Shown: positions 6,949 through 27,034 of the stretch, one piece after another | Numbering within the stretch: position 1 is the first letter of the stretch | Layout: each line of letters opens with the position of its first letter | Virus record (IMG/VR): IMGVR_UViG_3300036945_000763 | Coordinates: 1 to 32,045 of that record | Reading direction: 5' to 3' (one strand) | DNA from: a virus | Length of the DNA stretch: 32,045 nucleotides | Notes under the pieces: model-generated | The model's input: the letters and a program-made list of their open reading frames with translations, nothing else | What the model was told of the DNA's origin: nothing | The model's database searches: none | Made by a program: the position numbers and the translations under genes

Positions 6949-6984
6949 GAAGAAGGGATCGGTGAACGGTGATCAGAGATCGGA
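6949..6984 (-). repeat. Short-word 5' leader (GATC/CACCG words)
   Basis: Between a stop codon and the next ATG. On the sense strand it contains GATCCGATCTCTGATCACC and then TTCACCGATCC, near-repeats of GATC and CACCG. No G-rich ribosome-binding site is present. It is one of a set of such leaders in this genome. Confidence 0.4.
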
Positions 6985-7734
6985 TCAGGCGACGATGCCA
7001 CCAGGGGCGGATGGCGAGAGGTTGCCACCAGCGACAGCCGTAGATCGTCCGGGCGCGGCGGGCAAAAGATCGCCAGCCGCTTCAGTCATTTTGGATTCAG
7101 CTTGCAGATTGTTGTCAAACATCAGGGAGAAGGTGCCGGTCGCTGCGGTCGATCCGAGCGGGGTCCATTCCTGGATCTGGTCGGGAGCGGTGTTCGGAAA
7201 CGTGGAGGAGCCATCCGTGGCGATCCACGTTGCATAGATTTCACCATCGACCCACCATTCCCAATACCACGCATCGACGGTCAGCCAGTGAAGAAAGAGC
7301 CAATCGCCGGTCGCGGCGGCGGTCATATTTCCATCAGTGGACCACGCCATCACGCCCATTGATTCCGGAACCGTTGTTCCGGCCTCTACGAGCGTATCTC
7401 CCACCATGCCGTATGCCACCAAGGTGCCGCCCGTGACGGTCAAGGGGGGGCCGGTCGCTGCGCCTGAAAGCTGAATCAGCTCGGGGGCCGTGGGGGAAAG
7501 ATTTCCACCTGCCACCGCACCAGTCAGCCCTGGAGCAGTCGGCGAGAGATTCCCGCCCGCAGCGCTGGAGCTTAGCCCTGGAGCGGTCGGCGAGAGATTC
7601 CCGCCCGCTGCCGCGCCACTGCCACCCGGAGCCGTTGGCGCGAGGTTCCCACCCGCCGCAGCGGAGCTGAGCCCCGGAGCGGTGGGTGATAGGTTTCCCC
7701 CGGCATTGGAAACGGTGGCAGTGACGGTCGGCAT
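6985..7734 (-). CDS. Repeat-rich tail protein (GGNLSPTAPG repeats)
   Basis: 249 residues. Residues 12-91 are five tandem 16-residue units of the form GGNLSPTAPGLSSAAA. Two further units, one degenerate, close the protein at 220-249. The centre (about 92-219) is a non-repetitive, Trp-rich domain (FLHWLTVDAWYWEWWVDG) that looks like a beta-sandwich carbohydrate- or surface-binding module. It sits between the tube-like protein and a small tail protein. The repeats may be a flexible low-complexity linker displayed on the tail. The family is not recognised. Repeat copy number could vary by slippage or recombination. Confidence 0.55.
   Translation of the reverse strand: MPTVTATVSNAGGNLSPTAPGLSSAAAGGNLAPTAPGGSGAAAGGNLSPTAPGLSSSAAGGNLSPTAPGLTGAVAGGNLSPTAPELIQLSGAATGPPLTVTGGTLVAYGMVGDTLVEAGTTVPESMGVMAWSTDGNMTAAATGDWLFLHWLTVDAWYWEWWVDGEIYATWIATDGSSTFPNTAPDQIQEWTPLGSTAATGTFSLMFDNNLQAESKMTEAAGDLLPAAPGRSTAVAGGNLSPSAPGGIVA
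7462..7701 (-). repeat. Five tandem 48-bp coding repeats
   Basis: Five in-frame units encode GGNLSPTAPG plus six variable residues. The units remain recognisable at DNA level but have diverged. Two related units recur at 6988-7077 at the 3' end of the same gene. Confidence 0.8.
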
Positions 7735-7767
7735 GGCTGTGATGGTTCGAACTTGTCTCTTGGAACT
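7735..7767 (-). repeat. Short-word 5' leader (AAGTTC words)
   Basis: On the sense strand it reads AAAGTTCCAAGAGACAAG followed by TTCGAACCATCACAGCC before the ATG at 7734. The word AAGTTC is nearly repeated. No Shine-Dalgarno is seen. Confidence 0.4.
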
Positions 7768-8304
7768 TTACGCCGGCAGATTGTAGGCGTTCAGCGTGGA
7801 GAGCGGACGGATCACGCGGCAGATCAGCTTGAATTCCTGCACAGCCTTGGAGATTTCCGGGCTTTCCATCACGCGGATCTGCACCCAGGCATCCATCAGG
7901 CTGTGGTCGGTGCCGGTGTGCTTGCGCTCCTGGATCTTCAGCCAGGCGTTCAGCTTCCGGTCGGTCTTCACGAAGGGCGACTGAGCAGTGCCGTGCGTGA
8001 TCGCTCCGCTGAGACCCATCTGGATCTGGCGGAAGAGGTCCGTGGCACGCTTGGCGGTGATCTCGAATTCATCTCCCACGGTGAATTCGTTCAGTTCCTT
8101 GCCCCAGCCGTTGGCGTCCACGATGTCATCGTCAGACGTCTCCTTGATCGGGTTGTGCTTGAAGGTCTGCACCGCGAAAAGCTCCTTCCAGGAAGCAGCA
8201 TCGGCAGCGGGCTTGGTGGCGGCATCCGAAGTCGAAGAGACTTCAGGATTCAGGTAAACAATGGCTCCTGCGAAGAGGAGTTCAGATCCGGCGAGTTGGG
8301 CCAT
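7768..8304 (-). CDS. Probable major tail tube protein
   Basis: 178 residues. It has the size and gene position expected of a siphovirus tail tube protein: after the tail-terminator-like gene and ahead of the tape measure. Strand-rich segments (NEFTVGDEFEITAKRATDLFRQ, split by short loops; LNAWLKIQER; DAWVQIRVM; FKLICRVIRPL) are consistent with a tube beta-sandwich. The motif GDEFEITAKRATDLFRQI recalls the helix that packs between tube subunits. No sequence family is recognised with certainty. The start is the ATG at 8304, with a CTCAA-word leader upstream. Confidence 0.6.
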   Translation of the reverse strand: MAQLAGSELLFAGAIVYLNPEVSSTSDAATKPAADAASWKELFAVQTFKHNPIKETSDDDIVDANGWGKELNEFTVGDEFEITAKRATDLFRQIQMGLSGAITHGTAQSPFVKTDRKLNAWLKIQERKHTGTDHSLMDAWVQIRVMESPEISKAVQEFKLICRVIRPLSTLNAYNLPA

Positions 8305-8345
8305 CTTGGTGGTGTGTTAGAGTTGAGAGTTCAGGATTGAGAGGA
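8305..8345 (-). repeat. Short-word 5' leader (CTCAA words)
   Basis: The sense strand carries CTCTCAATCCTGAA, then CTCTCAACTCTAACAC, then CACCACCAAG before the ATG at 8304. This is an imperfect repeat of CTCTCAA. No Shine-Dalgarno is seen. Confidence 0.4.
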
Positions 8346-8549
8346 TCAGGCCACTCCGTCGATCCGGACACCCGGAGGAGTGAGGGCTTCGAGGGCTTTG
8401 GCCTTGGCTTGCGGAAGGTGCATGACCTTCCCCGCAGCGTGATGGGCTCCGTCGATGAGGATGCCGTTCACGAGCACCGTGCAGACGAGCTGCACGGACG
8501 ATTCAGGTGCAGTTTCAGCAGGTGCGGCTGCGGTTGTTGTCTTTTTCAT
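8346..8549 (-). CDS. Small head-tail region protein
   Basis: 67 residues. After a low-complexity Ala/Thr start (MKKTTTAAAPAETAPESS), residues 19-67 read as a compact domain (LVCTVLVNGILIDGAHH, then GKVMHLPQAKAKALEAL). The pattern, a strand, a G-x-x-x-x-G turn, a leucine-ended strand and a short helix, resembles the small proteins often found between head and tail genes, and recalls the protein at 10334-10594. Function unknown. The coding call rests on compact spacing, strand and a plausible domain. Confidence 0.5.
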   Translation of the reverse strand: MKKTTTAAAPAETAPESSVQLVCTVLVNGILIDGAHHAAGKVMHLPQAKAKALEALTPPGVRIDGVA

Positions 8550-8593
8550 GGAGAGTCTTTTGTGGATTCTGGTCTCTGGTTTCTGGCCTCTGG
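8550..8593 (-). repeat. Short-word 5' leader (CCAGA words)
   Basis: The sense strand holds three imperfect copies of a CCAGAAA/CCAGAGA word (CCAGAGGCCAGAAACCAGAG, then ACCAGAATCC) and then AGACTCTCC before the ATG at 8549. No Shine-Dalgarno is seen. Confidence 0.45.
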
Positions 8594-9094
8594 TTAGAAC
8601 TGCATCTCCCGCTCGAAGGTCATCGAGTAGGCGGTGAAATCGGGGTCTGGCAGTGGGGAGAAGGCGTTGGCGGTGATGCGCTCGAACCAGCCGTATCCGG
8701 CGATGTCCACCTGGGCACCGTGCAGGAGGCGCATGATTTCCAGCATTAGGACGAGAGGGGTGCGGGCGTTATTGGCCCGGAGCACGGGGTGGCTGAAAAG
8801 CTGGATCTCGAAGTCCACCTTGAACCGTGGCTGATCCAGATCCTTCTCCACGTTCTGACCGCCCCCGGCGATGATCACCACCGAGAGCCCCTTGGCCTTC
8901 GCCATGTGGCCTTGGATCATCTTGTCGATCTCCTCGGCGGAGGTTTCCGGAGCGATCACCGTGACGTTCTTGTTCGTCAGTTCTGGCAGCTCGGTGTTGG
9001 CGTTGATCAGGATGTTCGCGATCACCACGAGCATGTCGTCCAGTCCGCCAGGATAGCCGGTGGCAGCGCCTTCGATGGGAGTGACGGTGGGCAT
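8594..9094 (-). CDS. Tail terminator-like protein
   Basis: 166 residues with an alternating alpha/beta pattern: a helix (DMLVVIANILINANTELP), strand (VTVIAP), helix (SAEEIDKMIQGHMAKA), strand (LSVVIIAGG), a strand pair (RFKVDFEIQLFSH) and a helix (PLVLMLEIMRLLHG), ending in an aromatic-rich strand (FTAYSMTFEREM). This resembles the fold order of tail terminator proteins such as lambda gpU or Mu gp37-like proteins. It lies directly after the minor virion protein and before the tube gene, which fits. Assigned by pattern and synteny. Confidence 0.55.
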   Translation of the reverse strand: MPTVTPIEGAATGYPGGLDDMLVVIANILINANTELPELTNKNVTVIAPETSAEEIDKMIQGHMAKAKGLSVVIIAGGGQNVEKDLDQPRFKVDFEIQLFSHPVLRANNARTPLVLMLEIMRLLHGAQVDIAGYGWFERITANAFSPLPDPDFTAYSMTFEREMQF

Positions 9095-9097
9095 GGG

Positions 9098-9691
9098 TCA
9101 GGAAAGTCGGGAGTTCCGGATCACGGCGGCGAGCTCGCTGCCGATGCGGTCGTTGAAAAGGTTGTTGGTGCGGATGCCGCGAAGCACGGTGCCGAGAGGG
9201 GCACGGGCCGGGATGTCCACTTTGCGGCCATGCGGCTTTACGTTGGCAGTGGTCTTGCCGCCGCGTTGCAGGACGCTCTTGAGCTTGTTGCTGCTGGTCT
9301 TCGTCAGCTTGCCCCGGCGGAAGGTCTGGGTGCCGGTCAGCTTCCGGACGTGGCCCTTGACCTGCTGAGTCCCGGTGAAGCCGAACTCATGCACGCCGAA
9401 GTAGCGGACATTGGAGCCGAAGCTCACGTTGATCTCGCCGGTGGTAGGATTCAGAGCGGCCAAAGTGGCGCGGATGGATTTCCGCAGGCGTCCGGTCACG
9501 ACTCCCAGCCGATGCTGGGACACTGGAAACGGACCCTTGCCGGTGAAGGATTCCTTCACCGCGATGCCGACGATCTCCTGCGAGGCCCGATTGATCCCAC
9601 GAGCACACGCCCTGGCGAAACGGACGTTGCCGTTCTTCATCGCCAGCACCTCGGAGGATGCCTGGTCATTGATGATCACGTCCACGTTCAT
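9098..9691 (-). CDS. Phage virion morphogenesis / HK97 gp10-like tail completion protein
   Basis: 197 residues. The segment VTGRLRKSIRATL, then INVSFGSNVRYFGVHEFG, has the T-G-x-L-R-x-S-I and Y-x-x-x-H-E-F-G signatures of HK97 gp10-like and Mu G-like proteins, which act at the head-tail junction. The C-terminal half is basic (RRGKLTKTSSNKLKSVLQRG) and ends in IRTNNLFNDRIGSEL. It overlaps the upstream connector gene as ATGA and is followed after 3 bases by the terminator-like gene. The family placement is good. The longer basic insert is unusual. Confidence 0.7.
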   Translation of the reverse strand: MNVDVIINDQASSEVLAMKNGNVRFARACARGINRASQEIVGIAVKESFTGKGPFPVSQHRLGVVTGRLRKSIRATLAALNPTTGEINVSFGSNVRYFGVHEFGFTGTQQVKGHVRKLTGTQTFRRGKLTKTSSNKLKSVLQRGGKTTANVKPHGRKVDIPARAPLGTVLRGIRTNNLFNDRIGSELAAVIRNSRLS

Positions 9692-10299
9692 GAGCCTGCG
9701 AACCTCCGGAAGGGTAAGAGGGTTTCAACGACTTCAGGGATCAGCCTCAGATCCGGGAGCTTTGCCTCGGACGCTGTGCGATCCTCCTTCCGCAGCGCGA
9801 TGGTGCGGAAGATTTCCCGGTGTTCGCACACCGCCTGCACCTGCATGACGAATGCCTGGAGCAGATCGTCCGGCATCGGAGTGGCTCCACTCGGCATCGT
9901 CTCGCCATCGTCCAGCCAATAGCCGCCGGTGTAGGTGACGACGACGGATTCCAGTCGCGTGCCGGCACTGCCGTTGATCTCGATCAGGCCGCTCTTTTTC
10001 GAGAGCCGCCAGTCTCCAGCGGTCAGGGCCGAGACGCTCCCGTCCGTGTCCTTCACGACGATTCCGGAAACGGTCTCCACCGGGTAGCGGGAAAGCACCC
10101 AGGCGAAGGCCAGCGCATCGAACTCCTCGGTCACCGCCGCTGCCCGTTCCAGGCTGCGGGAGGTGTGCCGGTTCATCCTCCCCGCCACGGCTTTCCCGAT
10201 GGCGGCGATCTGCTCATCGTAGTCCGTGTCATCCTGCATGGCGGCAGGGAGGACTTGGGCCTTCAGGGCAGTCAGGAGGATGAATCCGGCGTCGAGCAT
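9688..10299 (-). CDS. Head-tail connector protein (gp6-like)
   Basis: 203 residues. Helical N-terminus (about 25-60), then SRYPVETVSGIVVKD, a strand run, WRLSKKSGLIEINGS, and VVVTYTGGYWLDD followed by PMPDDLLQAFVMQVQAVCEHRE. The Y-P-V-x-x-V-x-x-I and V-x-Y-x-A/G-G-Y patterns followed by P-x-D-L-x-x-A are hallmarks of gp6/gp15-type head-tail connectors. It comes shortly after the capsid gene, as expected. The leader at 10300-10333 consists of GAAATC words. Confidence 0.7.
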   Translation of the reverse strand: MLDAGFILLTALKAQVLPAAMQDDTDYDEQIAAIGKAVAGRMNRHTSRSLERAAAVTEEFDALAFAWVLSRYPVETVSGIVVKDTDGSVSALTAGDWRLSKKSGLIEINGSAGTRLESVVVTYTGGYWLDDGETMPSGATPMPDDLLQAFVMQVQAVCEHREIFRTIALRKEDRTASEAKLPDLRLIPEVVETLLPFRRFAGS

Positions 10300-10333
10300 G
10301 GTGTTTAGAATTTCAGATTTCGGATTTCGGATT
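10300..10333 (-). repeat. Short-word 5' leader (GAAATCC words)
   Basis: The sense strand has three near-tandem words, GAAATCCGAAATCC then GAAATCTGAAATTC, followed by TAAACACC and the ATG at 10299. The same word type precedes the gene starting at 19092. The first bases adjoin the upstream stop. No Shine-Dalgarno is present. Confidence 0.5.
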
Positions 10334-10594
10334 TCAGTGCGTCACGATCTCCACCAGTCCGGCGAGCGCGGCGGCACGATCGGCAGTGGTCTCAAAGGTT
10401 TCGCCCTTCGCGTAGCCCTCGCCATCCTCGGAAACCCGCTGGCCGATCACGCGGACCGTGACGAGTTCAGGAGTGGTCTCGGTCAGGTCCACGTTGTTGG
10501 CAGCAGCCAGTTCAGTGAGCACAGCGATGGTGGCGTTGGCCGCGAAAGTGACGCCCGCAGCGGTCAATCGTTCGGCAATTTTTGCTTTGGTCAT
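10334..10594 (-). CDS. Small head-region protein
   Basis: 86 residues, beginning MTKAKIAERLTAAGVTF. Residues 1-30 look helical. Residues 44-86 (LVTVRVIGQRVSEDGEGYAK, then GETFETT and AALAGLVEIV) form a strand-turn-strand unit with a terminal helix, similar to small proteins after the capsid gene in Mu-like and lambda-like phages (compare Mu gp35 and the FluMu N-terminal domain). A faint resemblance to the 8346-8549 protein is visible. Function unknown, probably virion or connector-associated. Start chosen at the ATG at 10594. Confidence 0.55.
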   Translation of the reverse strand: MTKAKIAERLTAAGVTFAANATIAVLTELAAANNVDLTETTPELVTVRVIGQRVSEDGEGYAKGETFETTADRAAALAGLVEIVTH

Positions 10595-10631
10595 GGTCTT
10601 GAATTCTTCGTTTAGAATTTCGTGCTTTCTC
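10595..10631 (-). repeat. Short-word 5' leader (GAATTC words)
   Basis: Sense strand: AGAAAGCACGAAATTC, then TAAACGAAGAATTC, AAGACC and the ATG at 10594. The word AGAGAAAGCACGAA also begins the leader at 19093-19131, about 8.5 kb away. Confidence 0.45.
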
Positions 10632-10644
10632 TGACCCCGGTGAT

Positions 10645-10680
10645 GCCGCCCGCTGGGAAACCCATTAACCAGCGAGCGGC
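10645..10680 (-). other. Hairpin after the major capsid gene
   Basis: 10645-10656 and 10669-10680 are 12-base inverted repeats with one mismatch that becomes G-U in the leftward mRNA, around a 12-base loop. It lies 32 bases past the capsid stop. No U-run follows, so mRNA 3'-end protection or partial attenuation is likelier than intrinsic termination. Confidence 0.55.
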
Positions 10681-10712
10681 ACGGACCGGAGGCAGCAAGC
10701 CCCGGAGGTTGG

Positions 10713-12122
10713 TTAGCTGGCAGGGAGGGTAAAGGTCGCCAGGGCGGAGGCCTTGACACCCACTGCATCAGCGCGGAGGTGACCACGGAACGAGCGCTCC
10801 AAGGTGTTCCAGCGGAACTGATCGGAGGCCTCGAAGGTGAACTGCTTGCGCAGGCCGACTGCGAAGGCGCGAGGATCACCGAAGACGGCCACCTTGGCGG
10901 AGGTCGTGTTCGTGGAAGGAGCGGCACCCACCATGCTGACCGGGAAGCCGAAGACGTTCATGATGCCACCGGCTGGAGCTTCCATTGCCGTCTGGAAGAT
11001 CGGGCGACCGTTGGAGTCCTGCACACCCACCGCAGCGGCCAGAAGGGTCGGGTGAATCCACCAACGGGCCGGGCGCTGAAGGACAGCGGCGTCCACGGTG
11101 GTGAGGCACTTCAACCAGTCGTCATACTTCGTGGCAGCGATGGTCGTGCGGCCAGTGGTGGCAGTCGCTGCCGTGCCGAAGTTGAAGAGGCCGGTGCAGC
11201 CGCCGTTGGTGGCGTCCGCCGTGCCATCGCCACGGAATGCGGCGTAGTCCAGGCGGAGGTTCACCGCTTCGATGAAATCATCGAGCACGTCGGCAACGAT
11301 GTCGATTTCACCGTCCTCGATCAACTGGAGGGACACGTGAAGCATGACGGCGATGACCTCGGCTTCCAGGGTCACAGTCGTGCCAGCCTTGGCCGTATCG
11401 TCCGAGATGGTGCCGCCTTCCGAGAGGATGAAGTTGGCAGTCGGGCGGGCGGTCTTGATCGGCACCTTGGTGTTCTTGGTCCCCACCGGACGGACGCCGA
11501 GCGTGCCCCATGAACCGTAGCGGAGCAGGGAGTCGTAGATGTCCGTGCTGAGCTGGTCGTTGATCAGGGTGGAACCAGGAGAAGAATCTTCACCCAGGGC
11601 CTTGGCCGCGATCTCGGGCTTGCCGATGGCGCAGCAGATGGAGGCGAAGACCTGCTTGGCCTGCTCCTTGTTCTGGATCGTGCGCTGACCGAGGGTCATG
11701 GCGGTGCCGCCATTGGCGAGGCGCTGTTCCAGAGTCATCTGGAGCTGCACCTTCTTGATGAGCAGATCGAGCTGCTTCTGATGATCGGAAAGGCCAGTGA
11801 AGTCGTTCTTCACCTTGGTCAGTTCCTCGAAGGCTTTCTTCGTGTCCTTGTCCAGGTTGTCGAAGTTCTTCAGCATGTCCTCCTGAGACGTGCGGACCTT
11901 TTCGATGGTGCCGAGCACCTTGCCCTGGAACTCCGCAGCGGAGAGTCCGCCGCCGTTGTCTCCTTCACCGGCTTCACGGCGCTTCGGCGCAGCGAGGGTC
12001 AGGAAAGGCATCAAGGCGCAGGTTCCGAGCTGGTCCTTGGCCGGGGCGAAGAAGATGCAGGCGAGGGCGATGATCGCGGCGAAAATGCGGGCGATCCCAA
12101 CAGTGTGTTTAGTCGATTTCAT
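10713..12122 (-). CDS. Major capsid protein, HK97 fold
   Basis: 469 residues. Residues 60-135 are a charged coiled coil (TIEKVRTSQEDMLKNFDNLD, then FEELTKVKNDF), the scaffolding delta domain removed by the upstream protease in HK97-type phages. The mature part shows family features: a long N-arm, TLGVRPVGTKNTKVPIKT, ILSEGGTISDDTAKAGT, a spine helix region (DDFIEAVNLRLDYAAFRGDG) and a C-terminal FRGHLRADAVGVK. The first 37 residues are odd: basic and then hydrophobic (IARIFAAIIALACIFFA), like a signal peptide. An internal ATG at 12011 would remove them. I keep 12122 because it follows a low-G leader like those of other genes. Confidence 0.85.
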   Translation of the reverse strand: MKSTKHTVGIARIFAAIIALACIFFAPAKDQLGTCALMPFLTLAAPKRREAGEGDNGGGLSAAEFQGKVLGTIEKVRTSQEDMLKNFDNLDKDTKKAFEELTKVKNDFTGLSDHQKQLDLLIKKVQLQMTLEQRLANGGTAMTLGQRTIQNKEQAKQVFASICCAIGKPEIAAKALGEDSSPGSTLINDQLSTDIYDSLLRYGSWGTLGVRPVGTKNTKVPIKTARPTANFILSEGGTISDDTAKAGTTVTLEAEVIAVMLHVSLQLIEDGEIDIVADVLDDFIEAVNLRLDYAAFRGDGTADATNGGCTGLFNFGTAATATTGRTTIAATKYDDWLKCLTTVDAAVLQRPARWWIHPTLLAAAVGVQDSNGRPIFQTAMEAPAGGIMNVFGFPVSMVGAAPSTNTTSAKVAVFGDPRAFAVGLRKQFTFEASDQFRWNTLERSFRGHLRADAVGVKASALATFTLPAS

Positions 12123-12157
12123 GAGTAGAGTGTGATGAGTCCAGTCTGTGCAATGTC

Positions 12158-12970: not shown

Positions 12971-12973
12971 GAG

Positions 12974-13297: not shown

Positions 13298-13316
13298 CTT
13301 CGTTGAAGCTTGGACG

Positions 13317-15440: not shown

Positions 15441-15616
15441 TTCCGCACCTCCTTGTTCGTCCGGTTAGATCCAGACCCCGTTGCAAACCCGTTGCAAACG
15501 GACGAGGCCGCGTTTTTGGCCGATTCCCGCGTCTTTGTGCGCAAAACAGGCACACCCCCCTTAGAATCGCTCTGAGGGCCACAAATCATCCGGTGGTTGT
15601 TAGGCAGGGAAATCAT
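15437..15616 (-). CDS. Small unknown protein between large terminase and portal
   Basis: 59 residues, beginning MISLPNNHRM. Hydrophilic, rich in Ser, Asn, Lys and Arg, with no recognisable domain. It is linked on both sides: its ATG overlaps the terminase stop as TGATG, and its TGA overlaps the portal GTG as GTGA. It contains an 11-bp tandem duplication (CCGTTGCAAAC on the plus strand, 15478-15499) that changes its length. The tight coupling favours a translated frame. It could instead be only a spacer that carries ribosomes to the portal start. Confidence 0.4.
   Translation of the reverse strand: MISLPNNHRMICGPQSDSKGGVPVLRTKTRESAKNAASSVCNGFATGSGSNRTNKEVRK
15446..15454 (-). promoter_or_regulatory. 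Strong Shine-Dalgarno of the portal gene
   Basis: The sense strand reads AAGGAGGTG five bases before the GTG at 15440. It fixes the portal start at a GTG and is the clearest canonical ribosome-binding site in the window, in contrast to the low-G leaders of most other genes. Confidence 0.85.
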
Positions 15617-18241: not shown

Positions 18242-18246
18242 GGAAA

Positions 18247-18968: not shown

Positions 18969-19092
18969 GACTGTCAAATTGCTTCCGGCGTGCCTGCTTG
19001 TGTTCCTGGCTCAGTGCCCGATCAGATCGCACCACGCACACCGCCAGCAGCAGGAGAGTGGTGGCCACCAGGGCGATGATCTTCGGGTCCAT
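18955..19092 (-). CDS. Small single-span membrane protein, possible lysis protein
   Basis: 45 residues, beginning MDPKIIALVATTLLLLAVCV and continuing with a basic, hydrophilic tail (VRSDRALSQEHKQARRKQ). One transmembrane helix covers about residues 5-21 with the charged tail after it. It overlaps the endolysin start and follows the holin-like gene, so a role in lysis (second holin, antiholin or spanin-like) is plausible. The preceding leader has the GAAATC-word style seen at other real starts, which supports this start. No homologue is recognised. Confidence 0.55.
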   Translation of the reverse strand: MDPKIIALVATTLLLLAVCVVRSDRALSQEHKQARRKQFDSHGHE

Positions 19093-19131
19093 GCGTTTCG
19101 GATTTCAGATTTCGAGCTTCGTGCTTTCTCT
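19093..19131 (-). repeat. Short-word 5' leader (GAAATC words)
   Basis: Sense strand: AGAGAAAGCACGAAGC, then TCGAAATCTGAAATCC, then GAAACGC and the ATG at 19092. It shares AGAGAAAGCACGAA with the leader at 10595-10631 and the GAAATC(T/C) words with that at 10300-10333. Confidence 0.5.
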
Positions 19132-19147
19132 TGAAAAGTCGCGGCGT

Positions 19148-19197
19148 GCGGACTTCACAGGCGCTTGCCACAGGCAGGCCTCGGTCCGCTAAGCGCC
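19148..19197 (-). other. Interleaved inverted repeats after the holin-like gene
   Basis: Two inverted repeats cross each other: 19148-19153 with 19184-19189 (GCGGAC/GTCCGC), and 19160-19166 with 19191-19197 (GGCGCTT/AAGCGCC). They start 6 bases past the holin-like stop codon. In RNA they could form alternative hairpins or an H-type pseudoknot. There is no U-run. Confidence 0.4.
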
Positions 19198-19202
19198 GGA
19201 GG

Positions 19203-19406
19203 TTACTTCGCGGCGTAGATCGGGCGGGCCTTCGGTGCCTGGTAGCGGCTGGCCTCGTTCCCGACTGTGAGCGATGCCTTCGCTCCACTGCCGGCATCTC
19301 GAAAGGAAAGGGTGCCGGTGATCGGCAGATTCGCCAGGGAAGCGCACGACGGCAGGCTTGTCATGAGCGCTGCCGCCGTGCCCCCCAGCATCATCAAACG
19401 CGCCAT
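19203..19406 (-). CDS. Possible nested lipoprotein frame (Rz1/o-spanin-like)
   Basis: In-frame internal start within the holin-like gene. The 67-residue product would begin MARLMMLGGTAAALMTSLPS with Cys21 as the lipidated residue, a textbook short lipoprotein signal. It lies in the lysis module and could be an outer-membrane spanin partner. AGGG immediately before the ATG is too close to be a good ribosome-binding site, so independent translation is uncertain. The alternative is one bifunctional membrane protein. Confidence 0.3.
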   Translation of the reverse strand: MARLMMLGGTAAALMTSLPSCASLANLPITGTLSFRDAGSGAKASLTVGNEASRYQAPKARPIYAAK

Positions 19407-20073: not shown

Positions 20074-20126
20074 GCCGGAGTGTAGCACGAGGGCTCACCA
20101 CCTTTTTCCTGACGCCGGGGAAATGG

Positions 20127-20497: not shown

Positions 20498-20551
20498 CTT
20501 TCCGATTCAACCTCGGAAACCGTGGGCACGTCCTTAGATGGCTGGTTCGTT

Positions 20552-20881
20552 TCATGGAGTCTTCGGCTTCTTAATTGGAGCCGGATAGATCACCGCTTTG
20601 CGGGGAAGGTCCGCAGCAGGCGAGTTTTCTTTTGTTTCAGCCGCGATCATTCGTGGCTCCCCCCACGGCGACCGGGCATCTGCCCCATTCAGCTTTGCCT
20701 TCCAGTTCAGATCCAGAGCCATGCTGCCGGTGGCCTCGATCTCGGAAAGGAAGGTTTCAGTGAGGTGCCGCACCAGGGCGCTTTTTGTCGTGCCCAGCTT
20801 CTTAGCTGCCGCCACGAGCTGCGCATCGGTCGCTTCATCGAAGCGGACGTTGATCTGGGAGTCTTTGGAGCCCTTGGCCAT
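20552..20881 (-). CDS. Ribbon-helix-helix DNA-binding protein, leftward operon
   Basis: 109 residues from the ATG at 20881 (a GTG lies at 20890). SQINVRFDEATDAQLVAAAK then KLGTTKSALVRHLTETFLSE is a ribbon-helix-helix: a DNA-contacting strand (INVRF), helix A, the turn LGTTKSAL and helix B. The C-terminal 50 residues are Pro-rich and unstructured-looking. It is the first gene of the leftward operon and faces a second RHH gene across 92 bases. This suggests a pair of opposing regulators, functionally like Cro and CI. No Mu-type c repressor is seen. Confidence 0.7.
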   Translation of the reverse strand: MAKGSKDSQINVRFDEATDAQLVAAAKKLGTTKSALVRHLTETFLSEIEATGSMALDLNWKAKLNGADARSPWGEPRMIAAETKENSPAADLPRKAVIYPAPIKKPKTP

Positions 20882-20973
20882 CTGCACCACAATTCGACGA
20901 ATTTACATTGCTATACAATTTTTTATTGCCTCACGTATATCAACGCTATACAACCCCAACAGTAACGAACGCC
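20882..20973. promoter_or_regulatory. Divergent control region with direct-repeat operators
   Basis: AT-rich gap in an otherwise GC-rich genome, between two outward-facing RHH genes. GCTATACAA occurs at 20910-20918 and again at 20945-20953, 35 bases apart (start to start). The first lies in TTGCTATACAA (20908-20918), a near palindrome. Promoter-like hexamers overlap them: TATACA at 20947-20952 with TTGCCT 15 bases upstream for the rightward direction, and TTGTAT (reverse of 20913-20918) with TTGATA (reverse of 20938-20943) at 19-base spacing for the leftward. Likely the lysis-lysogeny switch. Confidence 0.6.
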
Positions 20974-21177
20974 ATGTCCCGCCCCAAACAATCCCTTGGA
21001 GATCCAGTGATGGTCCGCTTTGCATCCGCTTCAAAGGAGGCCCTGCAATCGGTCGCTGAAGCCAACGGTCTTTCGCTTTCCGCGATCATCCGGCTCGCAG
21101 TGGAACGCCAGCTTCCAGCACTCCGATCCGGCGGCACCTCCCTGCGCCCGGCTAGGTCTGCCCGCTCCTCCTCCTGA
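20974..21177 (+). CDS. Ribbon-helix-helix DNA-binding protein, rightward operon
   Basis: 67 residues from the ATG at 20974. DPVMVRFASASKEALQSVAE then ANGLSLSAIIRLAVERQLPA has the RHH order: strand (VMVRF), helix A, the turn NGLSLSAI, helix B. The tail is short, basic and Ser-rich. It is the first gene of the early operon and probably regulates the divergent promoters at 20882-20973. An upstream in-frame ATG at 20908 would place the operator inside the coding region and is rejected. Confidence 0.7.
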   Translation: MSRPKQSLGDPVMVRFASASKEALQSVAEANGLSLSAIIRLAVERQLPALRSGGTSLRPARSARSSS

Positions 21178-21210
21178 TCCTCCATCAGCCCCCTCCACCA
21201 TCCCCATCCC

Positions 21211-21426: not shown

Positions 21427-21430
21427 TCCC

Positions 21431-21464
21431 TTCGTCATTCGGAAATTCCTCATTCGTCATTCTC
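21431..21464 (+). repeat. 34-base early leader, copy 1
   Basis: Two TTCGTCATTC words flank the palindrome GGAAATTCC and TCA. It begins 4 bases past a TGA stop and ends 9 bases before the ATG at 21474. Confidence 0.8.
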
Positions 21465-21473
21465 TTCCTCCGC

Positions 21474-21686
21474 ATGGACCACCCCCTCTCAGACCTCCCA
21501 GCTACCGTGCGCATCGACCTCACGCTCGCCGTGCTCAGCTCCATGGAGGTTCAGGCCGCAGGCGGATGGTCCATCGCTGATCTCGCCGATCTCTGCGGAT
21601 GCAGCGAGGCCGCCATCGTGGCCCGCCAGACCGCCGCTCTCCAGAAAGCCCGCGCCCAGGCACAAGCCTGCGGCCTCCTCGACTAA
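21474..21686 (+). CDS. Small HTH-like early protein
   Basis: 70 residues. The C-terminal half, WSIADLADLCGCSEAAIVAR then QTAALQKARAQAQ, has the spacing of a sigma-region-4 or MarR-type helix-turn-helix (A-D-L-x-G-x-S-x-x-x-I). The N-terminal half (MDHPLSDLPATVRIDLTLAV) is helical. It may be a Ner-like early regulator. No close family is recognised. It is preceded by copy 1 of the 34-base leader. Confidence 0.5.
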   Translation: MDHPLSDLPATVRIDLTLAVLSSMEVQAAGGWSIADLADLCGCSEAAIVARQTAALQKARAQAQACGLLD

Positions 21687-21701
21687 ACCCAGCAACCCAC
21701 C

Positions 21702-21893
21702 ATGAAAGCCGTCTCCTTCTTCACCCCAGAACACGCCGTCGCCCGCTTCCGCGCCGCCCGTGCCGCCGATGCCAACGGCACGCCGCGTGTCCGCATCAAA
21801 CCAATCGGACCGATCCGACCAATCCCCCTGATCAGACGGATCTCCGCCCTCTTCCAATCCGCAATCCGCAATCCGCAATCTCCACTCCCATGA
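21702..21893 (+). CDS. Small early protein with repeat-derived C-terminus
   Basis: 63 residues beginning MKAVSFFTPEHAVARFRAAR. Only the first ~32 residues look like ordinary protein. From about residue 33 the DNA is made of short repeated words (ATCGGACCGATCCGACCAATC-like at about 21802-21823, then three AATCCGC words), giving KPIGPIRPIPLIR and then QSAIRNPQSPLP. The stop overlaps the next start as ATGA. Either the repeats extended the frame or a short gene has lost its original stop. Confidence 0.35.
   Translation: MKAVSFFTPEHAVARFRAARAADANGTPRVRIKPIGPIRPIPLIRRISALFQSAIRNPQSPLP
21856..21889 (+). repeat. Short-word 5' leader (AATCCGC words)
   Basis: AATCCGCAATCCGCAATCC then GCAATCTCCACTCCC before the ATG at 21890: three tandem AATCCGC words with no Shine-Dalgarno. 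It also forms the end of the preceding reading frame. Confidence 0.5.
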
Positions 21894-22054
21894 ATCCGCT
21901 CGCCACCGTCCTCGCCGCCGCCACCTCGGTCTATGCGCCTCTGCTGGTCGCCTTCGCCGTCATCCACATCCGGAACCGCCGCCGCGACCGCCAGCGCCTC
22001 ACTCGCCGCCCCATCGGCCCCACCGGCAACCCCGTCCCGGATCTCCACCTCTGA
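21890..22054 (+). CDS. Small single-span membrane protein
   Basis: 54 residues beginning MNPLATVLAAATSVYAPLLV. One transmembrane helix (about 4-25) is followed by a strongly basic tail (RNRRRDRQRLTRRP). The ATG overlaps the preceding stop. Its early-operon position and the basic cytoplasmic tail suggest a host-interaction or Kil-like role, but nothing is recognised. Confidence 0.5.
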   Translation: MNPLATVLAAATSVYAPLLVAFAVIHIRNRRRDRQRLTRRPIGPTGNPVPDLHL

Positions 22055-22058
22055 TCCA

Positions 22059-22092
22059 TTCGTCATTCGGAAATCCCTCATTCGTCATCCTC
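22059..22092 (+). repeat. 34-base early leader, copy 2
   Basis: The same two TTCGTCAT words around GGAAATCCC (one base off the palindrome). It starts 4 bases after a TGA stop and ends 2 bases before the ATG at 22095. Confidence 0.8.
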
Positions 22093-22094
22093 CC

Positions 22095-22391
22095 ATGGCC
22101 CACATGCACACCATCCGAAAAGGCCCTCCCACAGGCCCAGTGATCAACCTGAACGGCGGTGGGAAGAACCCCCACACCAGCGGCATCAAGGAGGCCCCTC
22201 CCGTGGCCGTCGATTGCTCCTTCGCCGATGTCCGCCGTGCCTGCACGCGCTGGCTCCTCAAGAACGATCCCGGCTACCGCCGCCAGCACGACATCGCCAT
22301 GGAGGCCGTCAGCCGCCGCCGAGATCGCAAGGCAGGGAAGCCCGTCGAAGAAGACGGCACCGCCGAAACCATCAAGCGCTTCCTCTTCTAA
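22095..22391 (+). CDS. Unknown early protein
   Basis: 98 residues. The first ~35 are Gly/Pro-rich (PPTGPVINLNGGGKNPHTSG) and the rest helical with a basic stretch (ACTRWLLKNDPGYRRQHDIA, VSRRRDRKAGKP). No family is recognised. It is flanked on both sides by copies of the 34-base leader and lies upstream of the DUF3102-like gene. A second in-frame Met at codon 4 is possible. Probably an early accessory protein. Confidence 0.5.
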   Translation: MAHMHTIRKGPPTGPVINLNGGGKNPHTSGIKEAPPVAVDCSFADVRRACTRWLLKNDPGYRRQHDIAMEAVSRRRDRKAGKPVEEDGTAETIKRFLF

Positions 22392-22396
22392 CCCCC

Positions 22397-22430
22397 GTCG
22401 TCATTCAGAAATCCCTCATTCGTCATTCTC
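22397..22430 (+). repeat. 34-base early leader, copy 3
   Basis: Variant copy (GTCGTCATTC first word, AGAAATCCC centre) that abuts the ATG at 22431 with no gap. Confidence 0.75.
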
Positions 22431-23219
22431 ATGAACACCATCCAACCCGCTGAAATCATCGCCCCCGACTGGTCCCGTGCCCGCGCCATCATGGACGGCA
22501 TCAAGACCGCCGCCCGCCTCTCCATCGCTGGCCAAGTCCTCCTCGGTCACGAGCTTCTGACCCTCAAGTCCGACCTCGGATTCCTCGGCAGGGGAGGCGA
22601 CCGCCGATCAAACCGCCAAATTGGCGATTTGAATTTCCCGGACCGCACATGGGCCGAATGGGTCAAGCAAGAGCTGGAGATTCCAGACCGCACCGCCGAC
22701 CGCCTGATCGAGACCTACCAAGCCGCCAAGGCGCGTCTCAACAAGATCGGAGGCGATCAACTGTTGATCACCCTCTTCGATACACGCCCCACGGATCTTA
22801 CCCCGGAGGACCGGGCCAACCTCGCCACCATCGTGGATCGTCTCGTCTGGGGAGAAACCCAGTCCTCTCTCCTGGAGGAATGGCACATCGTCAAGCGTGC
22901 CAAGAACCTTGAAGGCGGAGACACCTCTTCCCACCGCAAGGAGGTCGATCCGGCCACCCCCGCCCAGCAGCTTGCCTTCGCCTTCTTCTCTCCCATCCCC
23001 AGCACCCTCGTGAAGCTGGAGAAGACCCTCGGCAACCTTCGCCATCATAGCGACTACCAAGGATTCCTCCACGTCCTGCCACTGACCAGCAGCACGCCCG
23101 AGCAGGTCAGCCTCACCAGCCTGGAGGCTACCCTCCAGACCGCCCTCGAAGGCGATCTCGTCAAAGCCCTCGACGACATCCGCGCCGCCAAGTCCGCCCG
23201 CATGATGGCGAACCGCTGA
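22431..23219 (+). CDS. DUF3102-like early protein
   Basis: 262 residues. AGQVLLGHELLTLKSDLGFL, then the loop GRGGDRRSN, then WAEWVKQELEIPDRTADRLI is the pattern of DUF3102/ParB-associated phage proteins (L-G-x-E-L-x-x-L-K...G-G-D-R-(K/R)-S...W...fS-x-R-T-A-x-R). The C-terminal half (~120-262) is helical with no recognised domain. It sits directly upstream of the transposase, and proteins of this type are often found beside phage replication or recombination genes. A DNA-binding helper or regulator for transposition is possible. Inference only. Confidence 0.55.
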   Translation: MNTIQPAEIIAPDWSRARAIMDGIKTAARLSIAGQVLLGHELLTLKSDLGFLGRGGDRRSNRQIGDLNFPDRTWAEWVKQELEIPDRTADRLIETYQAAKARLNKIGGDQLLITLFDTRPTDLTPEDRANLATIVDRLVWGETQSSLLEEWHIVKRAKNLEGGDTSSHRKEVDPATPAQQLAFAFFSPIPSTLVKLEKTLGNLRHHSDYQGFLHVLPLTSSTPEQVSLTSLEATLQTALEGDLVKALDDIRAAKSARMMANR

Positions 23220-23223
23220 GCCC

Positions 23224-23257
23224 TTCGTCATTCGGAAATTCCTCATTCGTCATTCTC
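23224..23257 (+). repeat. 34-base early leader, copy 4
   Basis: Identical in its first 34 bases to copy 1. It precedes the transposase start at 23266 by 8 bases. Confidence 0.8.
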
Positions 23258-23265
23258 TCCACCCC

Positions 23266-25413
23266 ATGCACCTCGGCACCTCCACTCTCGGCGCTCTGCG
23301 CCTGATCGACAGTCACGCGGAATTCGTCCGCCTCCCGGAAACGGTGCAGGCAGACGTGCTCCAGCGACTGGAGTGGATGACCGCCCTGACGAATGCCGGC
23401 CACCGCCGGAAGGGAAGCATCGTCACCGCCGCCGCCATGGCCCTGAATGTGGACGAGTCCAGCGTGAACCGCTACCTCGCCCGGTTCCGGAGCCGTGGCT
23501 GGCGCGGGCTTGTCGATGGCCGCGCCATGGCAAACGCCGCCAAGGGTCTGCCGGAAGCCTTCAAGGATTTCGTCCGCACCCTCCACCTTCAGAACCAACG
23601 CAGCACCACCGGAAGGGAAGTGCATCGCATCGTCTGCGAGCGGGTCAGCAAGTGGCGCAGGACTGGGGACGCGAGTTACGCCATCCCCGGCTACTCCACC
23701 CCACCGCCAGCAGGACCGAAGGGGTATCCCGCCGGCTGGTCCGTGGACACCATCGTCCGACTGCGCCCCGAGGCCTACGCCCTCGCCGCCGCCCGCCAGG
23801 GAGCGAAGGCCGCTGACTTCTTCCTCCCATCCATTCTCAAGACCCGCGCCTCGGTGGACTTTGGCCGCGTCGTCTTCTTCGATGACCAGGACTACGACAA
23901 CAAGGTCGTCGCCCCCGGACTCTCCCAGAGGGCTCTCCGCCCGCAGGGATTCAACGCTCTCGAATACCGCAGCGCCTGCTTCATGGACTACTCCATCCGG
24001 CTCCGCTGGTGGGACATGGATCAGGGCCAATACAAGACCCTTACCGGAGTGGAGGCCACCTGGTTCATCATCGGCTACCTCCAGAACCACGGATTCCGGA
24101 ACGATGCCGAGGGCACCACGCTCGTCGTGGAGCACGGCACCATGAACGGCTACGACAACCAGTCGCTCTACACCCCGGACGGGCACCACTCCCTTGCCGA
24201 TGCCCTCCTCGCAGTGACCGGTGGCAAGGTCCGCACCGAGCGCTCCGGACTCTTCAACAAGCCCGCCTTCGCCGGAATGCTCTTCCGTCCGCAGTCCTCC
24301 GGAAATCCGAACTTCAAGGCCCCACTGGAAGGCATCTTCAACCTCGTCCGCAACCGCTTCGCCGCCCTTCCGGGTGCAGTCGGTCGCAATCGCGACATCA
24401 AGCCCGCCGAGCAATACGGCCAGGACAAATACGCCGAGCAGATGCTGAAGGTCTGGAGCCGCCTGGATGATCGCCACCGCGAGGTTCTCCAGTTCCCGAT
24501 CCTCACTGCCTCACAATTCGGCATCGCCGCCATGGCCGTCTATGATGCCATCAACGCCCGCCGCGATCACGACCTGGAAGGCTGGGTGCGCTGCGGGCAC
24601 GTGGTGCCGCAGTTCCGCTTCACTCCGGATGACCGCAGCCCATGGCTGTCCCAGCACGATCTGCTGGCCCTCCCGGAACAGACCCGTGCCGCCGCCGAGG
24701 GCCTCATGACTCTCCCTGGCTACGTCCGCCAGGTGAACCTCGCCCCCATCGAAGTCGCCGACCTCTACCGCCGGGAACTCACCAAGCTCCCGGATCATCT
24801 GATCCCACTCCTGATCCCAGTCGCCTGGAGCCACGAGGCCACCGTCGCCAGTGATCGCACCATTTCGATTTCCGACCAGATGATGGGACCGGAGCCCATG
24901 CGCTACGTCGCCCGCTTCACGACCTCGGACAGCGCCACCACGCTGGCCACCGGCACGAAGGTCCGCTGCTACCTGAACCCGCACAACCCAGCCAAGCTCT
25001 ACGTCTGCCGCACCGATGGCTCATGGCTCGGCGTCCTCCACCAGATGGGACGTGCTGGCTTCCTCGATCACGAGGCCATCGTCGGCCAGCTCCAGGAGCG
25101 TGCCGAACTGAAGGCCGATCTGGACGCCGCCGTCCGCCCGCACCTGGAAGGTCTCATGCAGGACCGGAAGGCGATGAAGCGCACCAACGATCGCCTCGCC
25201 GCCGGTCAGCCAGTCCTTCCGGAAGAGATTGCCGAAGCCCGCCACGAAGCAGGCCTGAAGGGAGTCCGCACCGCCGCTGCAAACCGCCTGCAAGACCGTG
25301 GCACCAGCCGTGACTGGGACATCGAAGCCACCTCCGACATCGGCCCGGAGCCGGTCACCGACCCCTTTGCCGGCCTGCCTGAAGAAAGCCCGCTGCCGCC
25401 CTCCTTCCACTGA
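23266..25413 (+). CDS. Mu-type DDE transposase (MuA-like)
   Basis: 715 residues. An N-terminal HTH (about 51-86, SIVTAAAMALNVDESSVNRY) is followed by a second helical DNA-binding region. The RNase H-like core gives candidate catalytic acids D206 or D207 (RVVFFDDQDYDN), E289 (TLVVEHGT) and E355 (FKAPLEGIFN), spaced 83 and 66, compatible with MuA (67 and 56). The second position is Asp in MuA, so this is a D-E-E arrangement or the true Asp lies elsewhere. A beta-barrel-like domain (~525-590) and a helical tail ending in a disordered acidic segment follow, as in MuA. It joins phage ends to target DNA. Confidence 0.85.
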   Translation: MHLGTSTLGALRLIDSHAEFVRLPETVQADVLQRLEWMTALTNAGHRRKGSIVTAAAMALNVDESSVNRYLARFRSRGWRGLVDGRAMANAAKGLPEAFKDFVRTLHLQNQRSTTGREVHRIVCERVSKWRRTGDASYAIPGYSTPPPAGPKGYPAGWSVDTIVRLRPEAYALAAARQGAKAADFFLPSILKTRASVDFGRVVFFDDQDYDNKVVAPGLSQRALRPQGFNALEYRSACFMDYSIRLRWWDMDQGQYKTLTGVEATWFIIGYLQNHGFRNDAEGTTLVVEHGTMNGYDNQSLYTPDGHHSLADALLAVTGGKVRTERSGLFNKPAFAGMLFRPQSSGNPNFKAPLEGIFNLVRNRFAALPGAVGRNRDIKPAEQYGQDKYAEQMLKVWSRLDDRHREVLQFPILTASQFGIAAMAVYDAINARRDHDLEGWVRCGHVVPQFRFTPDDRSPWLSQHDLLALPEQTRAAAEGLMTLPGYVRQVNLAPIEVADLYRRELTKLPDHLIPLLIPVAWSHEATVASDRTISISDQMMGPEPMRYVARFTTSDSATTLATGTKVRCYLNPHNPAKLYVCRTDGSWLGVLHQMGRAGFLDHEAIVGQLQERAELKADLDAAVRPHLEGLMQDRKAMKRTNDRLAAGQPVLPEEIAEARHEAGLKGVRTAAANRLQDRGTSRDWDIEATSDIGPEPVTDPFAGLPEESPLPPSFH

Positions 25414-25431
25414 TTCTCACCACACCATCCC

Positions 25432-26478
25432 ATGTCAGAAGACAATAACACCCTGAAGCACGTCAACACCGGCGCGAACTACAACATCAGCCCGGATCAG
25501 TTCGAGAAAGTCATCGCCGAACTCCCCGAAGAGCAAGCGGACATCCTCCGCTGGTGGTATTTCCACGGAAAGGAAAACAACTACTCCCTTTCACAGCTCG
25601 CCACCTCCTGCGGCACCAGCTCGACCACGCTCTCCAGGATCTTCCGTGGCAACTACGGAGCCGAGCTGACCAGCATCTGCGAAAAGCTGACCAAGGCCCG
25701 CGAGACGATGGGCCTGCGCGTGGACAATCCGGATTTCATCGAGACGTCCCTTTCTCGGAAGATGTTCGGGATCTTCGACCGCACCCGCGCCCTCTCCACC
25801 GTCTCCCTGATGTGGGGCGACATGGGCGGAGGAAAGACCACCTGCTCGGAAGAGTATCGGAGGCAGAACAATCATGGCCGCACCTGCTACGTCCGCTGCG
25901 GTTCCCGCATGACCTTCGCGCAGTTCGTGGTCCATGTCGCCAAGGCCATCGGAGTCACCACGAAGAACCGAGGCCAGGCCGAAGTCCGCTACAAGATCCA
26001 GTCCCTGCTCCGTGCCGGTCAACGCCTGCTCATCATTGACGAGCTGCACCTGCTCTTCATCGCCACCCGTGGCAACACCGCCGTGGACATCTGCGAATTC
26101 CTCCGCGAGTGCTACGACGTCAGCGGCTGCGGCATGGTGCTGATCGGCACCAAGGTGCTAAAGAAGGAGTTCCTTTCCGGCGTCCACAAGGAAGCCCTCG
26201 CGCAGCTTCTGGATCGCGGCACCATCCAAGTGGATCTTCCATCCAAGCCCACCGCTGCTGATGCCAGGGCTTTCGTAAAACGCTACGGCCTCCCACCTCT
26301 TGACGAGTCCGAGCCCGAAGCCTGCACGATCATCGCCGACCTCCTAAAAACCTCCGGCCTGCGCAAGCTGACTCTCCATCTCCGCGATGGTGCCGCCTAC
26401 GCCCTCGCACGGAGACAGCCCTTCGCCTGGTCCCACTTTGTCCAGGCATTCGACGACATCCAGTCCCTCACCAAGTGA
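25432..26478 (+). CDS. MuB-like AAA+ ATPase, transposition target selector
   Basis: 348 residues, 18 bases after the transposase stop. An N-terminal HTH (about 51-75, YSLSQLATSCGTSSTTLSRI) is followed by an AAA+ domain with Walker A WGDMGGGKTT (128-137) and Walker B RLLIIDELHLL (198-208). The C-terminal ~80 residues are a helical lid. HTH plus AAA+ beside a DDE transposase is the MuB arrangement; TniB/IstB lack the HTH or differ in layout. The protein should bind DNA non-specifically as an ATP-filament, choose targets and protect the phage from self-insertion. Confidence 0.85.
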   Translation: MSEDNNTLKHVNTGANYNISPDQFEKVIAELPEEQADILRWWYFHGKENNYSLSQLATSCGTSSTTLSRIFRGNYGAELTSICEKLTKARETMGLRVDNPDFIETSLSRKMFGIFDRTRALSTVSLMWGDMGGGKTTCSEEYRRQNNHGRTCYVRCGSRMTFAQFVVHVAKAIGVTTKNRGQAEVRYKIQSLLRAGQRLLIIDELHLLFIATRGNTAVDICEFLRECYDVSGCGMVLIGTKVLKKEFLSGVHKEALAQLLDRGTIQVDLPSKPTAADARAFVKRYGLPPLDESEPEACTIIADLLKTSGLRKLTLHLRDGAAYALARRQPFAWSHFVQAFDDIQSLTK

Positions 26479-26482
26479 TCCC

Positions 26483-26671
26483 ATGGACCCACTCGAACTA
26501 ACCTCCATCTGGCACGAAGTGAACCTCGCCGGCGGATGCCTCGCCGATGCCGTCAAAAAGCAACGCGGCCCGGTGTTCCCCATTCGCGATGACCTCGCCG
26601 AGGCCCTCGTTCGCCTGGAGAAATCCCGCCTCCGCATCCGCCAGCTCCTCGCTAATCGCGATCTCCAATAG
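26483..26671 (+). CDS. Small helical protein after the ATPase
   Basis: 62 residues beginning MDPLELTSIWHEVNLAGGCL. Amphipathic helices with a charged C-terminus (ALVRLEKSRLRIRQLLANRD). No family is recognised. It starts 5 bases after the ATPase stop with only GATCCC between, so it is probably translated with it. Confidence 0.45.
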   Translation: MDPLELTSIWHEVNLAGGCLADAVKKQRGPVFPIRDDLAEALVRLEKSRLRIRQLLANRDLQ

Positions 26672-26697
26672 CTCCCATCCCTCACGTCATCCATCCC

Positions 26698-26997
26698 ATG
26701 ACACCCGAACACATCATCGACGCCGTCGCCCGCGTCACCAGCGTCAAAGCATCCGCTATCTGCGGTGACCGGCGCACCACTTCTGCTGTCTATGCACGCA
26801 CGCTGGCCATGGGACTGCTGCGTGAGAGCTTCCCGGATTGGAGCAATCAGGACTTGGCCCTCACGCTCGGTCTGATCCACCCGTCCAGCGCTGCATGCTG
26901 CTTCAAGCGCATCGAAAAGTGGAAAGGGAAAGACTCATTCCGAGCCCACTGGCGTGCCGCCGTCCGCATCCTCTGCGGTCCTCCTGCAACCGTGTGA
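26698..26997 (+). CDS. Stand-alone DnaA domain IV-like protein
   Basis: 99 residues. IIDAVARVTSVKASAICGDR, then SAVYARTLAMGLLRESFPDW, then LALTLGLIHPSSAACCFKRI aligns by eye with the C-terminal DNA-binding domain of DnaA: the basic loop (GDRRT), the long helix with A-R-x-x-A, and the HTH with the signature H-(T/P)-(T/S) followed by K-x-I. Position 64 of the signature is Ser instead of an aliphatic residue. It lacks the AAA+ and DnaB-binding domains. It could bind DnaA-box-like sites to recruit or exclude host replication proteins during transposition. Confidence 0.6.
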   Translation: MTPEHIIDAVARVTSVKASAICGDRRTTSAVYARTLAMGLLRESFPDWSNQDLALTLGLIHPSSAACCFKRIEKWKGKDSFRAHWRAAVRILCGPPATV

Positions 26998-27000
26998 TCT

Positions 27001-27034
27001 CTCGTCATTCGGAAATTTCTCATTCGTCATTCAT
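27001..27034 (+). repeat. 34-base early leader, copy 5
   Basis: Same layout (CTCGTCATTC, GGAAATTTC, TTCGTCATTC). It begins 3 bases after a TGA stop and ends 3 bases before the ATG at 27038, 3.7 kb from the nearest other copy. Confidence 0.75.

Follow-up and report, generated by a model that had tools for sequence, protein, structure and literature searches.

Why should the genes of a single virus each be preceded by short repeated words, with a different word from gene to gene? The question is raised by IMG/VR virus record IMGVR_UViG_3300036945_000763, all 32,045 bases of which (hereafter the window, a 32-kb virus contig) were analysed. A sequence-only reading had noted that at least twelve genes on both strands carry leaders of imperfect tandem words between a stop codon and the ATG, and had suggested that these stand in for Shine-Dalgarno (SD) sites, as products of one mechanism that generates different sequences. 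The analysis reported here indicates that the leaders are probably passengers of a DNA-level process that generates seven-base (heptad) repeats, of a kind seen in the intergenic DNA of the likely bacterial hosts, rather than substitutes for ribosome sites. Leaders of the named genes are present at every place where they had been described:

6949..6984, minus strand: heptad leader of gene 6520-6948, words CCGATCT CTGATCA CCGTTCA CCGATCC (lag-7 match 0.66, z 4.2)
7735..7767, minus strand: weak heptad leader of gene 6985-7734, words AAGTTCC AAGAGAC AAGTTCG (best lag 7, p 0.25)
8305..8345, minus strand: heptad leader of gene 7768-8304, words CTCTCAA TCCTGAA CTCTCAA CTCTAAC (best lag 7, p 0.054)
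8550..8593, minus strand: heptad leader of gene 8346-8549, CCAGAAA words (lag-7 match 0.62, z 4.2; Tandem Repeats Finder (TRF) period 7/14)
10300..10333, minus strand: heptad leader of gene 9688-10299, GAAATCC words (lag-7 match 0.74, z 5.2)
10595..10640, minus strand: leader of gene 10334-10594, AGAGAAAGCACGAAATTCTAAACGAAG, a dispersed host intergenic sequence (lag 7 not significant)
19094..19140, minus strand: heptad words GAAATCC/GAAAGCACGAAG before an uncertain start (lag-7 z 3.6)
21427..21473, plus strand: exact 32-mer TTCGTCATTCGGAAATTCCTCATTCGTCATTC, leader of gene 21474-21686 (exact copies in host genomes G006, G002 and G007)
21840..21889, plus strand: AATCCGC array before ATG 21890, overlapping the 3' end of ORF 21702-21893 (TRF period 7, 3.7 copies, 100% match; z 4.7)
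22055..22094, plus strand: 32-mer leader of gene 22095-22391 (pattern match, 2 mismatches)
22392..22430, plus strand: 32-mer leader of gene 22431-23219 (pattern match, 3 mismatches)
23220..23265, plus strand: exact 32-mer leader of transposase gene 23266-25413 (pattern match)
26998..27037, plus strand: 32-mer leader of gene 27038-27328 (pattern match, 2 mismatches)

A single period runs through these leaders. When lags of 4 to 12 are compared, the best self-match falls at 7 in 13 of 13 named leaders and in just 1 of 8 non-leader gaps of the window. As the 13 leaders had been picked for their repetitive look, the test was redone on all 21 gaps of 25–130 nt, taken blind to repeats, and lag 7 was best in 10 of them, against about 2.3 expected. 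Comparison with shuffled controls, the check proposed by the sequence-only reading, gives the same answer: self-match of window intergenic DNA at lag 7 exceeds dinucleotide shuffles with z = 9, alongside a weak excess at lag 15 and none at other lags, whilst lag 7 is not raised in window coding DNA (host coding DNA has period 3), and the window holds 6 period-7 arrays versus 0.3 in shuffles. The assorted word lengths first described reduce to this one period, including GATC/CACCG, AAGTTC, GAATTC and TTCGTCATTC, the last being TTCGTCA plus TTC. The repeat nature of all leaders stands in so far as the best lag is 7 everywhere, but those at 7735 (p 0.25), 8305 (p 0.054) and 10595 (p 0.18) are not individually significant. 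Placement also needed correction at two sites: upstream open reading frame (ORF) 21702-21893 takes in the AATCCGC array (21856-21880) at its 3' end, so that the array is not between a stop and an ATG, and the heptad words at 19093 are present but the start behind them is doubtful, with ORF 19022-19297 staying open across. The 32-nt TTCGTCATTCGGAAATTCCTCATTCGTCATTC recurs in five near-identical copies, at 21431, 22059, 22397, 23224 and 27001, sense in all, and a reversed control of the pattern has zero matches in the window.

The same words occur in bacterial DNA. Relatives of the window transposase (top identity 60%; 43% in Luteolibacter marinus) are located in genomes of the family Verrucomicrobiaceae, and the host, judged from these relatives, is therefore probably a member of that family. 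In a collection of genome contigs the five-copy leader pattern has 20 matches, 18 in Verrucomicrobia records (17 of them of Verrucomicrobiaceae, Verrucomicrobiales or Prosthecobacter type), one in Phycisphaerae and one in Planctomycetaceae. Copies of the 32-mer number 1 to 20 per genome in the 12 genomes with matches, with 0 for the reversed control; in G006 it stands at 20 dispersed places with up to 3 mismatches, and host sites are intergenic, amid other words. Leader 12-mers are found in intergenic and not in coding DNA of the hosts: 11 of 23 from leader 10300..10333, 16 of 35 from leader 10595..10640 (0 in host coding) and 15 of 36 from leader 19094..19140 have intergenic matches. Distribution across the phylum is patchy: of 388 genomes, 17 contain the exact 17-mer TTCGTCATTCGTCATTC, each with 1 to 49 copies.

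Arrays were counted in about 1.25 Mb of host DNA, sampled mostly from metagenome-assembled genomes and with genes called by a home-made gene finder. Genome G006 illustrates how pervasive they can be. It has 49 period-7 arrays versus 0.7 in shuffles (period 14 is also raised, and remaining periods give 0–6), at a density of 12.7 per 10 kb of intergenic against 0.63 of coding DNA, and contigs picked by number and by element content are equally dense (13.0 and 12.7 per 10 kb). Under strict settings 31 arrays use 24 different heptamers, so there is no one favoured word per genome, and a 203-bp array passes through five related words in succession with register kept. In other respects the arrays behave as intergenic heptameric repeats are understood to behave, with an over-represented 7-nt unit in intergenic DNA near ORF ends.

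This distribution bears on the idea that the leaders are phage regulatory sites, be they operators, stoperators or start-associated sequences (SAS). The five near-identical sense copies a few bases ahead of early-gene starts recall the SAS of cluster K mycobacteriophages, likewise a repeated phage sequence a few bp before starts in one orientation (PMC3203893). SAS, however, are a single non-tandem 13-bp sequence whose AGGAG core pairs with 16S rRNA and which hosts almost entirely lack (PMC3203893), whereas the leaders have no SD core, identical sequence is scattered across host intergenic DNA, and other words stand at orthologous phage junctions. A regulatory role of this kind is very improbable, and phage-specific operators were rejected on the presence of the sequence across host genomes. 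As a separate observation, 23 matches in other viral contigs (L028-L050) carry CGAAATCC heptad arrays, several of them lying directly ahead of a start (L028:2921 is an example), so the window phage is not alone among phages in having heptad leaders.

Do the leaders nonetheless replace SD sites? SD motifs lie upstream of 7–12% of starts in the window, in phages related to it and in three host genomes, versus 10–14% in shuffled sequence, i.e. at chance, in agreement with the SD scarcity of some Verrucomicrobia (PMC10783764). Since SD frequency is at chance for all sampled starts, SD absence is not leader-specific; array-free starts share it equally, with similar G depletion, and arrays also occur at stops in mirrored orientation. 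Replacement of SD sites was rejected accordingly. The low G content and the CC before ATG noted in the leaders are there to be seen, but a similar, weaker trend exists at starts family-wide: C-richness before ATG is general and G declines toward the start in most sets.

The geometry of the arrays is one of gene ends rather than of starts. In co-directional gaps 77 arrays divide into 40 nearer the start and 37 nearer the stop, and 14 more lie between convergent genes. Stop-side arrays begin 0–3 nt past the stop codon in 16 of 37 cases; start-side arrays end 4–13 nt ahead of the start in 23 of 40. Shared 14-mers keep their orientation when read outward from the gene end (49:7 for start-start, 36:17 for stop-stop and 66:40 for start-stop comparisons), and the G-rich strand points outward within 50 nt of the gene end (26:8 at starts, 21:7 at stops; 20:14 beyond 50 nt), whilst array-free stop flanks lean the opposite way (204:261, Fisher p 0.0015). 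The rule of Rehm et al., that the G-rich strand runs outward from the ORF at both ends, thus holds for these arrays. Folding of short array gaps is slightly weaker than that of shuffles, with a median z of +0.9 for 7 host gaps and +0.55 for 4 window gaps, and array-free window gaps fold alike (median z +0.51, n = 11).

Such observations can be read as selection on mRNA leaders, either as sites for an S1-, Csp- or CsrA-like RNA-binding protein, a role proposed for the TAACTGA repeats of Beggiatoaceae (MacGregor 2015, PMC4679880), or as unstructured landing zones replacing SD. Every window leader precedes a start in a single orientation, start-side arrays have the spacing just described, the short gaps tend to be unstructured, and the lineage is without SD. 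Against this stand the near-equal numbers of arrays at stops, mirrored in orientation, those between convergent genes, the array-free starts with the same SD absence and G depletion, the replacement of whole words between sister species, and homologous genes that have no leader at all (the transposase in L153, the homologue of the 22431 gene in L154). Selected mRNA leaders are therefore a doubtful general explanation, although there may be a modest selected effect at starts, e.g. in keeping the start open.

Structure at the DNA or RNA level does not unite the arrays either. Among array junctions of 100–350 nt, folding z falls below −2 in just 15%, and near-perfect long hairpins are seen at L102:702-833 (z −8.3) and L108:13937-14025 (z −7.4); hairpins as the general form of the arrays were rejected, holding as they do for few junctions. 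That minority is what an explanation by transcription terminators or other 3'-end hairpins can draw on, but the short leaders between co-directional phage genes are unfolded, and Rfam at gathering score gives 0 matches in the window, L102, L092 and L178, making terminators most unlikely. Long hairpins, together with the dispersal of the 32-mer in G006, could also suggest very small mobile elements with a dedicated enzyme, such as the cyanobacterial small dispersed repeats or the repetitive extragenic palindromes (REP) and REPINs moved by REP-associated tyrosine transposases (RAYTs, of the Y1 type). REP/REPIN sequences are, as here, small dispersed intergenic repeats, and hosts carry RAYT-family genes, but they are fixed palindromes of 20–40 bp with a tetranucleotide tag (PMC3733652), whereas here many changing words share one period without a fixed palindrome, short leaders are neither palindromic nor structured, and hairpins are missing from most array junctions. 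Insertions into an empty site with duplication of the target were not observed. RAYT number does not track the words (exact TTCGTCATTCGTCATTC has 0 copies in G553, with 28 RAYTs, and 22 in G006, with 7), and RAYT transposition was rejected for that lack of correlation; mobile elements as such are an unlikely source of the arrays.

How the arrays change is informative about how they arise. Three sister species (G006, G002 and G007; junction genes about 91–98% identical) were compared at 73 aligned junctions, with orthologous junctions anchored by BLAST. Divergence is greater where a junction has arrays (median identity 0.86 versus 0.95 without arrays, p 0.003), and length changes of exactly 7 bp account for 5 of 13 length-changed array junctions versus 0 of 16 others (p 0.011), in a comparison where numbers are small and some junction pairs, having a G006 allele in common, lack independence. 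Individual junctions show several kinds of change. At L102:19714, G002 has one 7-base unit more; at L092:8681, the G007 allele is shorter by one 7-bp unit, and CAGTGTT words in its middle have become CAGTGGT words. The 110-nt junction at L102:2640-2749 has TTCGTCA words where both sisters have 109 nt of TTCGATG words, and at L092:11609 G002 matches G006 (0.99) whilst G007 carries 111 nt of different words. At L102:702-833, TTCG has changed to TTAG in both inverted arms together. Novel 11-mers of the replacement alleles recur at other junctions well above shuffles (40 vs 7.4, 23 vs 6.4 and 80 vs 25), an excess that diverged array-free junctions do not share (12 vs 12.7 and 18 vs 17.3): replacement words are drawn from the genome's own word pool.

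Words also differ between phages, whose homologous genes were matched by gene-level BLASTP. Between the 22431-type gene and the transposase lie TTCGTCA words in the window, CACTGAT words in L007 and, in L153, 3 nt without a leader; the homologue of the window's 22431 gene has CTGAAAA words in place of the 32-mer in L153. The original suggestion of one mechanism with different sequences, or of traces of a repeat-generating process, is supported by the 7-bp steps and word swaps and by the many words that share one period of 7. Two junctions are of interest in themselves. The G007 counterpart of L102:702-833 holds about 325 bp of extra sequence (possibly a small ORF) between the inverted heptad arms, absent in G006, which looks like a cassette between mirrored arms; and at L178:3036-3204, where long CACGAATGGACACGAATC words stand in inverted arrangement (7/14 period), G002 shows a deletion of 10 bp and G007 a longer form.

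Constant period and geometry combined with free words favour a DNA-level process over a reader of particular words. Such a process would make and rewrite the arrays, and its simplest route may be 7-base replication slippage together with copying or template switching between arrays, inverted ones included: slippage by 7 would produce gains and losses of units, whilst copying or template switching would produce concerted arms, dispersed exact 32-mers and word swaps. Arrays would fill unconstrained intergenic space, beginning right past the stop and typically ending a few pyrimidine-rich bases short of the ATG, and would be tolerated there because the Verrucomicrobiaceae lineage does without SD pairing. 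The ATG-adjacent position is best explained as free-space filling in such a lineage, and the phage would carry arrays because it has DNA, or the process itself, in common with its host.

Several points weigh against a DNA-level heptad process. Slippage alone leaves unexplained both the exact recurrence of an irregular 32-mer at many loci and the outward pointing of arrays. The clustering of 23 of 40 start-side arrays at 4–13 nt from the ATG, and the more consistent orientation of arrays at starts (49:7) than at stops (36:17), could reflect selection, and a compact phage still retains leaders of 33–47 nt. A bolder version, which we consider improbable, is that Verrucomicrobiaceae have active machinery for writing and rewriting 7-base words from gene ends outward; going beyond slippage, it would have a templated mode that converts both inverted arms of a junction in concert, and it would act also on phage DNA in the cell, as a previously undescribed multi-word heptad system.

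Among the nearest described systems is that of Rehm et al. 2015 (PMC4692102), the GGGAATC / GGGGA(C/T)T heptameric repeats of Xanthomonas and Nostoc. Like the arrays here, these are intergenic repeats of period 7, 0–50 bp from ORF ends, with the G-rich strand outward (the non-coding strand upstream, the coding strand downstream) and lengths that vary among related strains (PMC4692102). They form one word family per genome, capable of G-quadruplexes and unreported in phages (PMC4692102), whereas here there are many words per genome, mostly not G-quadruplex-capable, and phages are included. The TAACTGA heptamers of Beggiatoaceae, Cyanobacteria and Bacteroidetes, patchy in taxonomy, are direct repeats mostly a few nt before starts, replacing SD (PMC4679880); they favour a single word, repeats of related heptamers being rare or absent, and their sets face starts far more often than stops (132 versus 12; PMC4679880), in contrast to over 20 words at both gene ends here. 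The short tandemly repeated repetitive (STRR) sequences of cyanobacteria (Calothrix PCC 7601) are also tandem heptanucleotides, three words being reported as cited in PMC4692102. What is new relative to the Xanthomonas/Nostoc and Beggiatoaceae heptads is the multiplicity of words and their presence in phages. No description of such repeats in Verrucomicrobia turned up in the literature that was searched, which does not prove that there is none.

As for the phage itself, the window encodes a transposase (PHROG 310), a TniB/MuB-like ATPase (PHROG 296, Pfam TniB), a tyrosine integrase, a terminase, a portal/head-morphogenesis protein, an HK97-type capsid and DNA methylases, a gene content that points to a temperate, apparently transposable phage resembling Mu-like ones. 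Against 50,697 annotated phage records the leader region has zero matches, and the capsid nothing better than about 23%. The transposase/TniB pair (23266-26478) co-occurs with the tyrosine integrase (30058-31020), as also in L153 and L154. Leftward and rightward genes are separated by an A-T rich divergent region (20880-20975) in which GCTATACAA-like sites recur (TTGCTATACAATTTTTTATTGCC...AACGCTATACAAC) and which is likely to be an operator/promoter control region of the phage. Other repeats include a 48-nt tandem unit (7526-7683, 3.3 copies) within coding sequence 6985-7734, a repeat protein; a direct repeat CCCGTTGCAAA CCCGTTGCAAA (15477-15499) in the 175-nt gap 5' of the portal gene, with a comparable TTTTGCAATGGCTTTGCA ahead of the terminase homologue in L007; and TTTCTCAGTTG / CGGGCTGTTTCGGCCTG motifs, repeated close to the record end (31830-32045), which may be the end sites that the transposase of a transposable phage binds, with comparable TTTCAGG repeats in L156.

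Heptamer repeats at gene ends have previously been reported as single-word curiosities of a few unrelated bacteria. Here, in one bacterial family, dozens of interchangeable words obey the same period and the same rule of orientation at gene ends, and comparison of sister species shows words growing by 7, changing in concert and giving way to others. Phage leaders of this kind should not be taken for promoters, operators or ribosome sites. Separating what is constant (period and geometry) from what is free (the word) speaks against regulators specific to a word, and the origin of 7-base repeats can now be put to a direct test in Luteolibacter-type strains, which are cultivable, and in the phages of these strains.

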